From Phenylobacterium sp. (GTDB taxonomy: Bacteria; Pseudomonadota; Alphaproteobacteria; Caulobacterales; Caulobacteraceae): a stretch of DNA of 64,000 nucleotides. A program made the translations under genes and the position numbers. Location of the stretch: NCBI RefSeq assembly GCF_030693405.1, contig NZ_JAUYAW010000030.1:1-64000 (forward strand), read 5' to 3'. The notes under the pieces were generated by a model. The model searched no databases. It saw only the letters and a program-made list of their open reading frames with translations, and was not told the origin of the DNA. Positions 15,412 through 35,951 of the stretch are shown here, one piece after another; the first letter of the stretch is position 1, and the number at the start of each line of letters is the position of its first letter.

Positions 15412-16719
15412 ATGGCCGATCTCTTCGAAGCCGCTGGGCTGACCCCGCACGCGCCCTCGCCGCTGGCTGATCGCCTGCGTCCGCAAACTCTGGGCGAGGT
15501 GGTGGGACAAGATCATCTGCTGGGCGAGGACGGCCCCATCGGCCGCATGGCCCAGGCCCACCGCCTGGCCTCCATGATCCTGTGGGGGCCGCCGGGGACC
15601 GGCAAGACCACCATCGCGCGGCTGCTGGCCAAGGCGGCAGGCTATGAATTTCAGCAGCTTTCGGCAGTCTTCACCGGCGTGGCCGACCTGAAGAAGGCCT
15701 TCGAGCAGGCCCGGGCCCGCCGGCTGGCCGGCCAGTCGACCCTGTTGTTCGTCGATGAGATCCATCGCTTCAACCGCGCCCAGCAGGACGGCTTCCTGCC
15801 CTTTGTGGAGGAGGGGATCGTCACCCTGGTGGGCGCCACCACCGAAAACCCGTCCTTCGAGCTGAACGGGGCGCTCTTGTCGCGCTGCCAGGTCTTCGTG
15901 CTCAAGCGGCTGGACGACGAGGCGCTCACCACGCTGCTGGCCAAGGCCGAGGCCTTCGAGGGCCGCGCCCTGCCGCTGGAGCCCGAGGCCCGCCAGGCCC
16001 TGGTGGCGCTCGCTGACGGGGACGGCCGCTACCTGCTGACCCTGGCTGAGACCCTGTTCAACATCGGTACGGCCAAGGCGCTGTCGACCAAGGAACTGGG
16101 CGCCATCCTGCAGAAGCGCAGCCCGGCCTACGACAAGGACCGGGAGGAGCACTACAACCTCATCTCGGCCCTGCATAAGTCGATCCGCGGGTCGGATCCG
16201 GACGCGGCCCTCTACTGGCTGGCCCGCATGCTGGGGGGCGGGGAGGATCCGCTCTATCTGGCGAGGCGGCTGATCCGCACCGCGGCCGAGGACATCGGCG
16301 CCGCCGACCCCATGGCGCTCGTCCTCGCCAACGCCGCCAAGGACACCTACGACTTCCTGGGCAGTCCCGAGGGCGAGATCGCGCTCGCCCAACTGGTGGT
16401 CCACCTGGCCACCGCGCCCAAGTCCAACGCCGTCTATGCAGCCTTCAAGGCAGCCCAAAAGGCGGCCAAGGACACCGGCTCCCTCATGCCGCCGGCCCAC
16501 ATCCGCAATGCGCCGACCCGCCTGATGCGCGACCTTGGCTATGGCAAGGGCTACGCCTACGACCACGACACCGAGGAAGGCTTCTCTGGCCAGAACTACT
16601 TCCCCGACGAGATGGCGCGGCCGGTCTTCTATCGCCCCAAGGGCGAGGGGGCCGAAGGGCCGATCAAGGCGCGACTCGACCGCTGGGCTGAACTGCGCAC
16701 CCGCAAGGCTCAAGGATGA
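15412..16719 (+). CDS. rarA: Replication-associated recombination protein A (AAA+ ATPase)
   Basis: RarA/MgsA (eukaryotic WRNIP1 homologue) acts at stalled replication forks with SSB. The 435-residue protein has PLADRLRPQTLGEVVGQDHL at the N-terminus, Walker A GPPGTGKTT, Walker B LLFVDEIHRFN, sensor region TTENPSFELN, and the C-terminal tetramerisation domain (HYNLISALHKSIRGSDPDAALYW). Its stop overlaps the start of the next gene (ATGA). Confidence 0.95.
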   Translation: MADLFEAAGLTPHAPSPLADRLRPQTLGEVVGQDHLLGEDGPIGRMAQAHRLASMILWGPPGTGKTTIARLLAKAAGYEFQQLSAVFTGVADLKKAFEQARARRLAGQSTLLFVDEIHRFNRAQQDGFLPFVEEGIVTLVGATTENPSFELNGALLSRCQVFVLKRLDDEALTTLLAKAEAFEGRALPLEPEARQALVALADGDGRYLLTLAETLFNIGTAKALSTKELGAILQKRSPAYDKDREEHYNLISALHKSIRGSDPDAALYWLARMLGGGEDPLYLARRLIRTAAEDIGAADPMALVLANAAKDTYDFLGSPEGEIALAQLVVHLATAPKSNAVYAAFKAAQKAAKDTGSLMPPAHIRNAPTRLMRDLGYGKGYAYDHDTEEGFSGQNYFPDEMARPVFYRPKGEGAEGPIKARLDRWAELRTRKAQG

Positions 16720-17489
16720 GCCGCAGCCCGACGGCCCGCGCCGAAAAGGCGCCTCCGCCAGCAATCCGCCTCTCGCCCGACGAAATCGCCTGGGTCCGCT
16801 CCATGGTGATCTATGAGGACGACGACCTGCTGGCGCTCAACAAGCCCTCAGGCCTGTCGAGCCAGGGCGGGCGGGGGCAGGTCCATACGCTTGATGAGCT
16901 GCTGTTCGCCTTCGCCAAGCCGGGCAAGGCGCGGCCACGGCTGATCCACCGGCTGGACCGGGACACCTCCGGCGTCATCCTGACGGCCAAGACCAAGCCG
17001 GCGGCCTCGGCCTTGGGCAAGGCGATGATGGCCCGACGCTTTGGCAAGACCTATCTGGCCGTGGTCGCGCCTGGTGCGCCGGAGCCTCGGGAGGGGCTGA
17101 TCGACAAGCCCCTGCGCCGGGAGGAGATCGGTCGCGAAGCCTATATGCGGATCTGCAGCCCCGAAGCCGACGGCGCCGAAACCGCACAGAGCCGCTACCG
17201 GACCTTGAGCGCCACCCCAACGGCCGCCCTGGTGGAGCTGTCGCCGAAGACCGGCCGCATGCACCAGCTCCGGGTCCATATGGCCTCCATCGGTCGGCCG
17301 ATCGCCGGCGATGTCCGCTATGGCGGGGCGCTGAGTCTTGGCGGGCAGATTTGTTCACGGCTGATGCTGCACGCTGCGGCCCTGGACGTCCCCCGGGCGG
17401 GCGGGGAACGCCTGCGCATCACCGCCCCGCCGCCAGCCGACATGGGCGCCTTTTGCGCGGGCCTCGGCCTTGCGACGCCGACCTATTGA
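16716..17489 (+). CDS. RluA-family pseudouridine synthase without S4 domain
   Basis: Converts a uridine in rRNA or tRNA to pseudouridine. The 257-residue protein has the catalytic motif HRLDRDTSGV (Asp in RLD), the preceding ALNKPSGLSSQGG and the KTGRMHQLRVHM block. An S4 RNA-binding domain is absent, as in RluA itself and several shorter paralogues; target specificity cannot be assigned. Start ATG overlaps the rarA stop by 4 nt. A second, S4-containing synthase lies 1 kb downstream. Confidence 0.85.
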   Translation: MSRSPTARAEKAPPPAIRLSPDEIAWVRSMVIYEDDDLLALNKPSGLSSQGGRGQVHTLDELLFAFAKPGKARPRLIHRLDRDTSGVILTAKTKPAASALGKAMMARRFGKTYLAVVAPGAPEPREGLIDKPLRREEIGREAYMRICSPEADGAETAQSRYRTLSATPTAALVELSPKTGRMHQLRVHMASIGRPIAGDVRYGGALSLGGQICSRLMLHAAALDVPRAGGERLRITAPPPADMGAFCAGLGLATPTY

Positions 17490-17498
17490 AGCTGTTGC

Positions 17499-17524
17499 GG
17501 AACAGCGGTCCGTCGCGGCACGTT
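17499..17524 (+). promoter_or_regulatory. EcfG/SigT-type promoter candidate
   Basis: GGAAC (17499-17503), exactly 17 nt, then CGTT (17521-17524): the full consensus reported for the alphaproteobacterial general-stress sigma factor EcfG (SigT in Caulobacter). The downstream ATG at 17533 would lie at about the transcription start, so the message may be leaderless; no Shine-Dalgarno is visible. The match is seen directly; regulation is inferred. Confidence 0.6.
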
Positions 17525-17532
17525 ATGGCCGC

Positions 17533-18018
17533 ATGAAGCGCCTATTCGCCTGTCTGTCTGTCTGCGCCGTCCTCGGCGGGTGCGCCATGGCCGCCTCACC
17601 CTATGGCCCCGCCTATGGTCCCCGGGGGGCGGGCTATTCGGAATACCAGATCGAGCCCGGACGCTTCCGCGTCACCTACCAGGGCGGGCCAGGCGCGCCC
17701 CCGCAACAGGTGGCCGACTATGCGCTGCTGCGCGCAGCCGAGCTCACCCTCGCCCAAGGCTACGACTGGTTCCAGATCACCGATCGCGCCACATCCGGGC
17801 GGCCGGGCGGCGGTCCCCGCCTGTCGCTGGGCACGGGCGGTGGGTCCTATGGCGGCCGGACCGCTATCGGGGTCGGAGTCGGCACCAGCATGTCCCTGGG
17901 GGGCGGACCTTCGGCGATCCAGAGCCTGGAAGTGGTGATGGGCCGCGGCCAGCGTCCGCCGGACCCCAACGCCTACGAGGCCCGCGGGGTTCAGGAGACC
18001 CTGCGACCCCGCGTCTGA
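17533..18018 (+). CDS. CC0125/CC1285-family lipoprotein
   Basis: 161 residues with a clear lipoprotein signal peptide (MKRLFACLSVCAVLGGC). The mature part has the pattern typical of this Caulobacter-type family: YRVTYQG-like start (RFRVTYQGGPGAPPQQVADYALLRAAELTLAQGYDWFQI) followed by glycine-rich strands. Function unknown; envelope-anchored. The start MKR at 17533 was chosen because it begins the signal peptide. An EcfG-type promoter sits immediately upstream, suggesting stress induction. Confidence 0.75.
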   Translation: MKRLFACLSVCAVLGGCAMAASPYGPAYGPRGAGYSEYQIEPGRFRVTYQGGPGAPPQQVADYALLRAAELTLAQGYDWFQITDRATSGRPGGGPRLSLGTGGGSYGGRTAIGVGVGTSMSLGGGPSAIQSLEVVMGRGQRPPDPNAYEARGVQETLRPRV

Positions 18019-18074: not shown

Positions 18075-18455
18075 ATGGAAAAGCTCTTTCTGGTCGCCCT
18101 CGGCGGCGGGGTCGGCGCGGTGGCGCGCTACCTGCTGGGCGTGGTCAGCCTAAACCGGCTTGGCATGTCCTGGCCGGCCGGAACCTTCATCGCCAACGTC
18201 TCCGGCGGCCTGCTGATGGGCCTGCTGGTGGGCTGGCTCGCGCTGAGGGGCGGCGGCGACCAGGAACGCCTGCGGCTGCTGCTGGGCGTTGGCCTGCTCG
18301 GCGGCTTCACCACCTTTTCAGCCTTTTCCCTGGAGACCGTCCTGATGATCGAGCGCCGCGCCTATGGCGAGGCCCTGGGCTATGTGCTGGTCTCGGTGGT
18401 CCTTTCAATCGCCGCCCTGTTCGCCGGGCTGATGTTCATGCGCAGGTTCGCCTGA
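18075..18455 (+). CDS. crcB: Fluoride channel CrcB/FluC
   Basis: A 126-residue, four-helix inner-membrane protein of the Fluc family, which exports fluoride as a dual-topology dimer. Signatures: GGGVGAVARYLLG at the N-terminus, GTFIANVSGG in helix 2 and GGFTTFSAFSLE with the conserved Phe/Ser positions in helix 3. No fluoride-riboswitch sequence is recognisable in the 56-nt upstream gap. The stop TGA overlaps the ATG of the next gene by one base. Confidence 0.93.
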   Translation: MEKLFLVALGGGVGAVARYLLGVVSLNRLGMSWPAGTFIANVSGGLLMGLLVGWLALRGGGDQERLRLLLGVGLLGGFTTFSAFSLETVLMIERRAYGEALGYVLVSVVLSIAALFAGLMFMRRFA

Positions 18456-19444
18456 TGCGTGAGGTCCGCAACATGGTGGTCGATCCCGCCGAGGGCGGGG
18501 TGCGTCTGGACCGCTGGTTCCGCCGGCGCTGGCCCCACCTGACCCAGGGACAGCTGCACAAGCTGATCCGCTCGGGCCAGGTCCGCATCGATGGCGCCCG
18601 CGCCAAGCCCGACACCCGGCTGGAAGGCGGCGAGACCGTCCGCGTGCCGCCCCTGCCGGACGCACCGGCCAAGGGCGACAGCCGCAAGGCCGTCGAGCTG
18701 CATCCCCGGGACGTCGCCTTCGTGAAGGGGCTCGTCATCTATGAGGACGAGGAGGTTCTGGTCCTCAACAAACCTTCGGGCCTGGCCGTTCAGGGCGGCA
18801 CCAAGACCAACAGCCATGTGGACCGTCTGCTGGGCGCCTGGGGCGAAGGGCTGTCGCGGCCGAGGCTTGTCCACCGCCTGGACAGGGATACTTCCGGCGT
18901 CCTCGTCCTGGGCAAGACCCCCTCGGCGGCGGCCAAGCTGGCCGGCGCCTTTGCAAGGCGCAAGGCGCAGAAGACCTACTGGGCCCTGGTCATGGGCAAT
19001 CCGCGTCCCACCGAAGGCGTGTTGGACCTGCCCCTGATCAAGCGCGGCGTTGGCGACCGTGAGATGATCGTGCCGGCTGAGAAGGGCGACAAGGAGGCTG
19101 ATCCGGCCGAGACCGAATTCGTGACCATCAGCCGGGCTGGCCCCCGGGCCGCCTGGATGGCCCTGCGCCCCCACACCGGCCGGACGCACCAGCTGCGCGC
19201 CCATATGAAGGCCATGGGCCACCCGATCCTGGGGGATCCCAAGTATGGCGACGAGGCCTCGGCACAGCTGTCGGGTCAGCTCAAGCTGCAGCTTCACGCC
19301 AGGCGTCTGACCCTGCCTCACCCCTCCAGCGGCATGCTGATCCTTGAGGCGCCCCTGAGCCCGGAGATGAAGGCAGGCTTCGCCCGCTTCGGCTTTGACG
19401 AGCACGAGGCCGACCCCGAGCCCTTCGGCCGCAAGCGGCGCTAG
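18455..19444 (+). CDS. rluC: RluC-type 23S rRNA pseudouridine synthase with S4 domain
   Basis: 329 residues. An N-terminal S4 RNA-binding domain (RLDRWFRRRWPHLTQGQLHKLIRSGQVRIDG) precedes the RluA-family catalytic domain with HRLDRDTSGVLVLG and TGRTHQLRAHM. In RluC the targets are three uridines in 23S rRNA (E. coli 955/2504/2580); the assignment against RluD is by overall pattern only. Its TAG stop is interlocked with that of the convergent DUF1501 gene in a palindromic CTAG (19441-19444). Confidence 0.85.
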   Translation: MREVRNMVVDPAEGGVRLDRWFRRRWPHLTQGQLHKLIRSGQVRIDGARAKPDTRLEGGETVRVPPLPDAPAKGDSRKAVELHPRDVAFVKGLVIYEDEEVLVLNKPSGLAVQGGTKTNSHVDRLLGAWGEGLSRPRLVHRLDRDTSGVLVLGKTPSAAAKLAGAFARRKAQKTYWALVMGNPRPTEGVLDLPLIKRGVGDREMIVPAEKGDKEADPAETEFVTISRAGPRAAWMALRPHTGRTHQLRAHMKAMGHPILGDPKYGDEASAQLSGQLKLQLHARRLTLPHPSSGMLILEAPLSPEMKAGFARFGFDEHEADPEPFGRKRR

Positions 19445-24551: not shown

Positions 24552-24577
24552 GGAACAAGCTCGCCCCTGAACCCGTT
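24552..24577 (+). promoter_or_regulatory. EcfG/SigT-type promoter candidate for the BON gene
   Basis: GGAAC (24552-24556), 17 nt, CGTT (24574-24577): an exact match to the general-stress consensus, 50 nt upstream of the ATG of the BON-domain gene. It lies just after pccB and so probably serves the downstream gene. Confidence 0.65.
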
Positions 24578-35773: not shown

Positions 35774-35804
35774 AAGGGCCGGCCCATTGTCGGGGCCGGC
35801 CCTT
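35774..35804 (-). terminator. Intrinsic terminator of the minus-strand small-ORF unit
   Basis: On the minus strand AAGGGCCGGCCC-CGACAAT-GGGCCGGCCCTT (12-bp stem) is followed by a run of T (plus-strand A-run at 35770-35775). The polarity fits transcription from higher to lower coordinates. The 9-mer CGACAATGG occurs both just before the stem and across the loop. Confidence 0.75.
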
Positions 35805-35849
35805 CCATTGTCGGACCGCTAGTGCGGCGGCCCGCAACCTTAGCAGCGC

Positions 35850-35915
35850 TTAGGCGCGAACCTCGTGGGAGGCCCAGGCTACGGTCACCGACTGCGACAG
35901 ATGACAATGAGACAC
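35850..35915 (-). CDS. 21-codon small ORF with near-perfect Shine-Dalgarno
   Basis: Not in the ORF track. On the minus strand GTG at 35915 opens a 21-residue frame, MSHCHLSQSVTVAWASHEVRA, ending in TAA (35850-35852). I recognise no domain; it is hydrophilic with Cys4, His3, His5 and His17. The start is preceded by AAAGGAGGTGATCC with ideal spacing. A promoter candidate lies 37 nt upstream and an intrinsic terminator 46 nt downstream, so the unit is self-contained. It may be a small protein, a leader peptide or the coding part of a regulatory RNA. Function unknown. Confidence 0.55.
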   Translation of the reverse strand: MSHCHLSQSVTVAWASHEVRA

Positions 35916-35916
35916 T

Positions 35917-35930
35917 GGATCACCTCCTTT
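35917..35930 (-). promoter_or_regulatory. Extended Shine-Dalgarno complementary to the 16S rRNA tail
   Basis: Minus strand AAAGGAGGTGATCC, with flanking bases, is complementary to about 17 nt of the alphaproteobacterial 16S 3' end (CTGGATCACCTCCTTTC). Seven bases separate AGGAGG from the GTG. The plus strand reads as a copy of the 16S tail, but no other 16S sequence is nearby. Confidence 0.7.
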
Positions 35931-35951
35931 CAATTGTTGAACACCACAACG

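Follow-up and report, generated by a model that had tools for sequence, protein, structure and literature searches.

A conserved EcfG-type promoter predicted to give rise to a leaderless lipoprotein mRNA in Phenylobacterium sp.

Results

In a stretch of 64,000 nucleotides from Phenylobacterium sp., referred to here as the window, positions 17499-17524 probably form a functional EcfG promoter from which an envelope lipoprotein is translated without a leader under stress, a reading to which we assign a probability of roughly 0.78 on the basis of comparative sequence analysis. It is proposed that under stress PhyR would free EcfG from NepR, and that EcfG-RNA polymerase would then start at or within one base of A17533, the first base of the lipoprotein ATG. 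The mRNA would be leaderless and would be translated by recognition of its 5'-terminal AUG, with no Shine-Dalgarno (SD) sequence. In the clade to which the window belongs, a leader of about 40 nt between the promoter and the start codon would have been lost.

The promoter lies on the plus strand, as do its neighboring genes, and consists of a -35 element GGAAC (17499..17503) that is invariant in 8/8 clade members, a spacer of 17 nt (17504..17520), and a -10 element CGTT (17521..17524), which places the two boxes at one of the spacings accepted for EcfG/SigT promoters (16-17 nt). It occupies the 43-nt gap between the stop codon (17489) of an upstream RluA-family pseudouridine synthase gene (16716..17489) and the lipoprotein ATG (17533-17535), with the GGAAC beginning 9 nt beyond that stop and the CGTT ending 8 nt before the ATG. 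A first-pass annotation of this DNA had drawn attention to the closeness of GGAAC-N17-CGTT to the ATG and to the lack of an SD, and both observations were borne out. The gene starts with AUG, and the best anti-SD duplex upstream of it reaches only -1.7 kcal/mol, compared to a median of -7.3 kcal/mol in orthologs with short leaders. We take ATG 17533 to be the real start codon of the lipoprotein because an upstream translation start is excluded in three clade members by a stop codon lying in frame between spacer and ATG, and because in the window the next ATG falls beyond the lipobox cysteine.

The lipoprotein gene (17533..18018, 161 aa) belongs to the CC0125/CC1285 family (NF047637), which it resembles in score (130 bits against a curated cut-off of 40), in its conserved core, and in the lipobox LGGC (17572..17583) at the end of the signal peptide, whose lipidated cysteine is residue 17 and which is kept in the orthologs. 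Within NF047637 the ortholog group of the window protein has the EcfG promoter, whereas the sampled paralog group is without it. A crcB (fluoride exporter) gene (18075..18455) follows 56 nt past the lipoprotein stop and is possibly part of the same transcript, and a second RluA-family pseudouridine synthase gene (18455..19444) comes next; the genes are co-oriented with short gaps, and their synteny is kept in relatives. A structure model of the lipoprotein was of moderate quality (pLDDT 73) and had no match in the PDB at E below 0.001, for which reasons a fold-based function was dropped, and a literature search for CC1285 by name found no published data.

Matches to GGAAC/CGTT at N16-18 numbered 4 in the window, against 0.79 expected from shuffled sequences, and the genome held 51 matches to the N16-17 motif, against 22 for the reversed pattern. 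Since the reversed pattern reached about 40% of the true motif's frequency genome-wide, the motif at 17499 might be a chance match, and a match by itself is weak proof. Orthologs were therefore collected from the loci of relatives and from 80 genome loci, mainly of Phenylobacterium, Caulobacter and Brevundimonas. Among 92 distinct caulobacteracean orthologs the exact motif was found in 74 (N17 in 51, N16 in 23), and GGAAC with a single substitution in the -10 element in 15 (such as CGCT in Brevundimonas and CATT at C. segnis-like loci), so that, counting one -10 change, it is present in 89/92 and absent in 3. It was found in 0/20 paralogs and in 0/5 homologs from other families of the order. 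In the eight species of the window clade, 9/9 motif columns are invariant, compared to 1/37 flanking and spacer columns (Fisher p = 9e-9). Since the orthologs retain the motif, the paralogs lack it and the clade shows no variation in the boxes, a chance match has next to no probability, and in practice this alternative may be regarded as refuted. Judging from the alignments, an EcfG-type promoter before the lipoprotein gene is almost certainly real. It is ancestral in Caulobacteraceae, where it lies near the 3' end of the rluA-type gene. A further family-wide sample was concordant, in that Brevundimonas-like loci have CGCT 20 or more nt before the ATG. In the Brevundimonas-like orthologs (L112, L115, L121, L123, L139, L232-L251) the -10 element is mostly CGCT and not CGTT, which suggests that the -10 preference of their EcfG has shifted.

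The window promoter shares with the SigT/EcfG promoters of Alphaproteobacteria (GGAAC-N16-17-CGTT) the exact boxes, the spacing, and a NepR/EcfG/PhyR locus in the genome. One NepR, scoring above the cut-off, adjoins an ECF sigma factor gene, and at the same locus a PhyR-like frame lies beside a palindromic GGAACCGGTTCC divergent promoter; a cognate EcfG-NepR-PhyR system is present in the genome. Along with the conservation among orthologs, this locus argues for the general-stress control that the first-pass annotation had attributed to the promoter, and it is from these two lines of evidence that we infer dependence on EcfG. Other motif sites precede genes for a Dps-like ferritin, a PAS HWE/HisKA_2 kinase, a second ECF sigma factor, a DUF1206 protein, topoisomerase IB and several lipoproteins, a gene set that fits the general stress regulon. 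Envelope lipoproteins seem to recur in this regulon: more small lipoprotein genes of this genome lie behind EcfG motifs at L051, L055, L057, L164 and L167.

Where a SigT/EcfG site of this genome has a plausible gene downstream, the start codon mostly lies 20 or more nt after CGTT, in contrast to the 8 nt of the window lipoprotein. The close spacing makes the lipoprotein gene an exception within its regulon in this genome: of the 51 genomic motif sites, a convincing ATG within 12 nt was seen only there and at the DUF1206 gene. The latter, which codes for a membrane protein (L161, motif at 1549, minus strand), has its EcfG site 11 nt before the ATG, making it the genome's second EcfG gene of the leaderless type. 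The idea that leaderless genes are in general overrepresented under EcfG control was rejected, since among the matches listed from 40 genomes of the genus an ATG at 7-9 nt formed only a modest peak (46/144 over 14 bins). In phyR promoter regions (L203:405-510, L188-L202) an ATG is found 7-13 nt after the CGTT of the palindromic EcfG promoter, and it opens a short frame (~15-47 codons) or a longer one that often runs on into PhyR; the 15 relatives were chosen for having such an ATG, whereas the window genome (L203) was not so chosen. PhyR itself was rejected as a leaderless candidate, as its start appears to be a conserved TTG ~75-90 nt downstream, with an SD.

The predicted zone of transcription initiation in the window is 17531..17535, with A17533 as the likeliest +1. 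In C. crescentus a mapped start has the 5' G of the SigT motif at -34 (PMC4287350), and when A17533 is taken as +1 the 5' G of the window GGAAC is likewise at -34. In the leadered N17 orthologs (39 rows) an A stands at the 10th nucleotide after CGTT in 90%, while in the window A17533 is the 9th and T17534 the 10th. Given the -34 geometry and this A in the orthologs, the predicted leader is zero, with an uncertainty of about one base, and the conserved bases of the leadered relatives would place +1 one base later than A17533. A slide of the start to G17535 would give an mRNA without its AUG. Were transcription to begin at 17534 or later, as the one-base offset of the +1-like A might indicate, the EcfG transcript would be non-coding for the lipoprotein and perhaps serve crcB. 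Transcription initiation, however, prefers purines and can shift by about one base. Moreover, it would then be surprising to find the ATG at nucleotide 9 or 10 after CGTT in several lineages independently, and we regard a start at 17534 or later as very unlikely. A preference for purines at transcription starts has been noted (PMC3616915). The leaderless mRNA that the first-pass annotation had predicted is thus consistent with the spacing, as A17533 as +1 puts the -35 element at -34 and distances of 8-9 nt recur across lineages.

The distance from CGTT to ATG divides the orthologs into three classes, with limits set by eye from gaps in the distribution. The leaderless type, at 8-12 nt, comprises the window clade and other lineages; a class at 20-35 nt is found in Caulobacter, Brevundimonas and a few others, nearly all with a strong SD; and distances of 42-57 nt are those of most Phenylobacterium. 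None of the orthologs falls at 0-7 or 13-19 nt. The three classes are exemplified by a Caulobacter segnis strain (L140, 8 nt, with CATT as its -10 element), Caulobacter sp. Root1455 (L129, 22 nt) and Phenylobacterium kunshanense (L082, 50 nt). Exactly 8-9 nt is found repeatedly, in lineages separate from one another, and at 11-12 nt the mRNA may carry a leader one to three bases long. Median SD strength was -2.2 kcal/mol in the leaderless type compared to -7.3 kcal/mol in the short-leader class (p = 7e-7), a difference to be read with the little space for an SD that a gap of 8-12 nt leaves downstream of the -10 element. In the 20-35 nt class the SD was at or below -4.4 kcal/mol in 26/27, and in the 42-57 nt class it was mixed. 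As the promoter begins within ~40 nt of the rluA stop in most rows of all classes, leader length is mainly what changed. The long (42-57 nt) leaders of L079, L088, L102, L014 and others share a conserved TACAAG...CGGAA...TTTCCG-like sequence right after the predicted start. A regulatory hairpin, paired by eye as CGGAA...TTCCG, was rejected, as RNAalifold predicted no base pairs in 18 leaders of 42-57 nt.

A tree of 89 rows was built from rarA, rluA, the lipoprotein gene (signal peptide removed), crcB and rluC, by a quick search in which SH-aLRT was the sole measure of branch support. The leaderless class needs six changes on it, five of them forced by well-supported branches. When the tree is rooted on Brevundimonas, the ancestor has a leader of the 20-35 nt class. 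Leaderless spacing was gained in the window clade (9 rows, with sister loci at 47-52 nt), in the C. segnis-like loci, in L144 and in L146, and the L027/L031/L033 group calls for either one gain with one reversal or two gains. On this tree the leader appears to have been lost, and leaderless spacing gained, at least five times in Caulobacteraceae, and the leaderless state is apparently derived; most relatives are leadered.

Discussion

Leaderless mRNAs are well characterized in related bacteria. In C. crescentus 375 of them (9.6% of genes) were described and are translated as efficiently as leadered ones, and most Caulobacter start codons are without an SD (PMC4117421); in Sinorhizobium meliloti there are 171 (PMC3616915). 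The window gene shares with these mRNAs the AUG start, the lack of an SD, and a promoter at the distance that puts +1 on the AUG; their 5' ends were mapped by sequencing, whereas that of the window is predicted. EcfG promoters are common here, as are leaderless mRNAs, and since leaderless mRNAs are common in C. crescentus and S. meliloti the window case joins known kinds. A full-text literature search found no paper describing an EcfG-dependent leaderless mRNA, and published start-site tables may contain some.

It might be argued that the EcfG promoter is real but contributes little protein through its short transcript, most of the lipoprotein being translated, by non-SD initiation, from a longer transcript that reads through from rarA-rluA. 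No terminator was found at the rluA-lipoprotein junction, and for this reason basal transcription from the rluA side could reach the lipoprotein gene. The co-directional genes with short gaps and kept synteny point the same way, as does the absence of an SD at most Caulobacter start codons (PMC4117421), and the two genes could be translationally coupled in one relative (L026/L144), where the stop of rluA overlaps the ATG of the lipoprotein gene. Nonetheless, the kept promoter boxes and the exact 8-9 nt spacing are hard to explain if the EcfG transcript is unused, and short-leader orthologs have retained a strong SD behind the same promoter. Read-through as the main source of the lipoprotein is therefore considered unlikely, and translation from a leaderless EcfG transcript is preferred.

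The point of interest is that the mode of translation was switched repeatedly under a fixed promoter. It is conceivable, though we hold it to be rather doubtful, that the repeated switch of this one stress-regulon gene from leadered (often SD-led) to leaderless was selected, for instance because the protein would be made by ribosomes that favor leaderless mRNAs in stress, or because it would escape regulation that targets the leader. Since promoter and protein are shared across three leader architectures, these loci offer a natural experiment for asking if general stress selects for leaderless translation or if this mode is free to drift in bacteria with ribosomes able to use either. The distances at which no ortholog falls (0-7 and 13-19 nt) further set bounds on the start site of EcfG-RNA polymerase and on the shortest working leader.

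Two other elements were observed in the window. A second GGAAC-N17-CGTT is present at 24552-24577, 50 nt before the ATG of a 268-aa frame, and on the minus strand positions 35775-35939 have an Rfam match to the Caulobacter sRNA CC2171 (98.8 bits).
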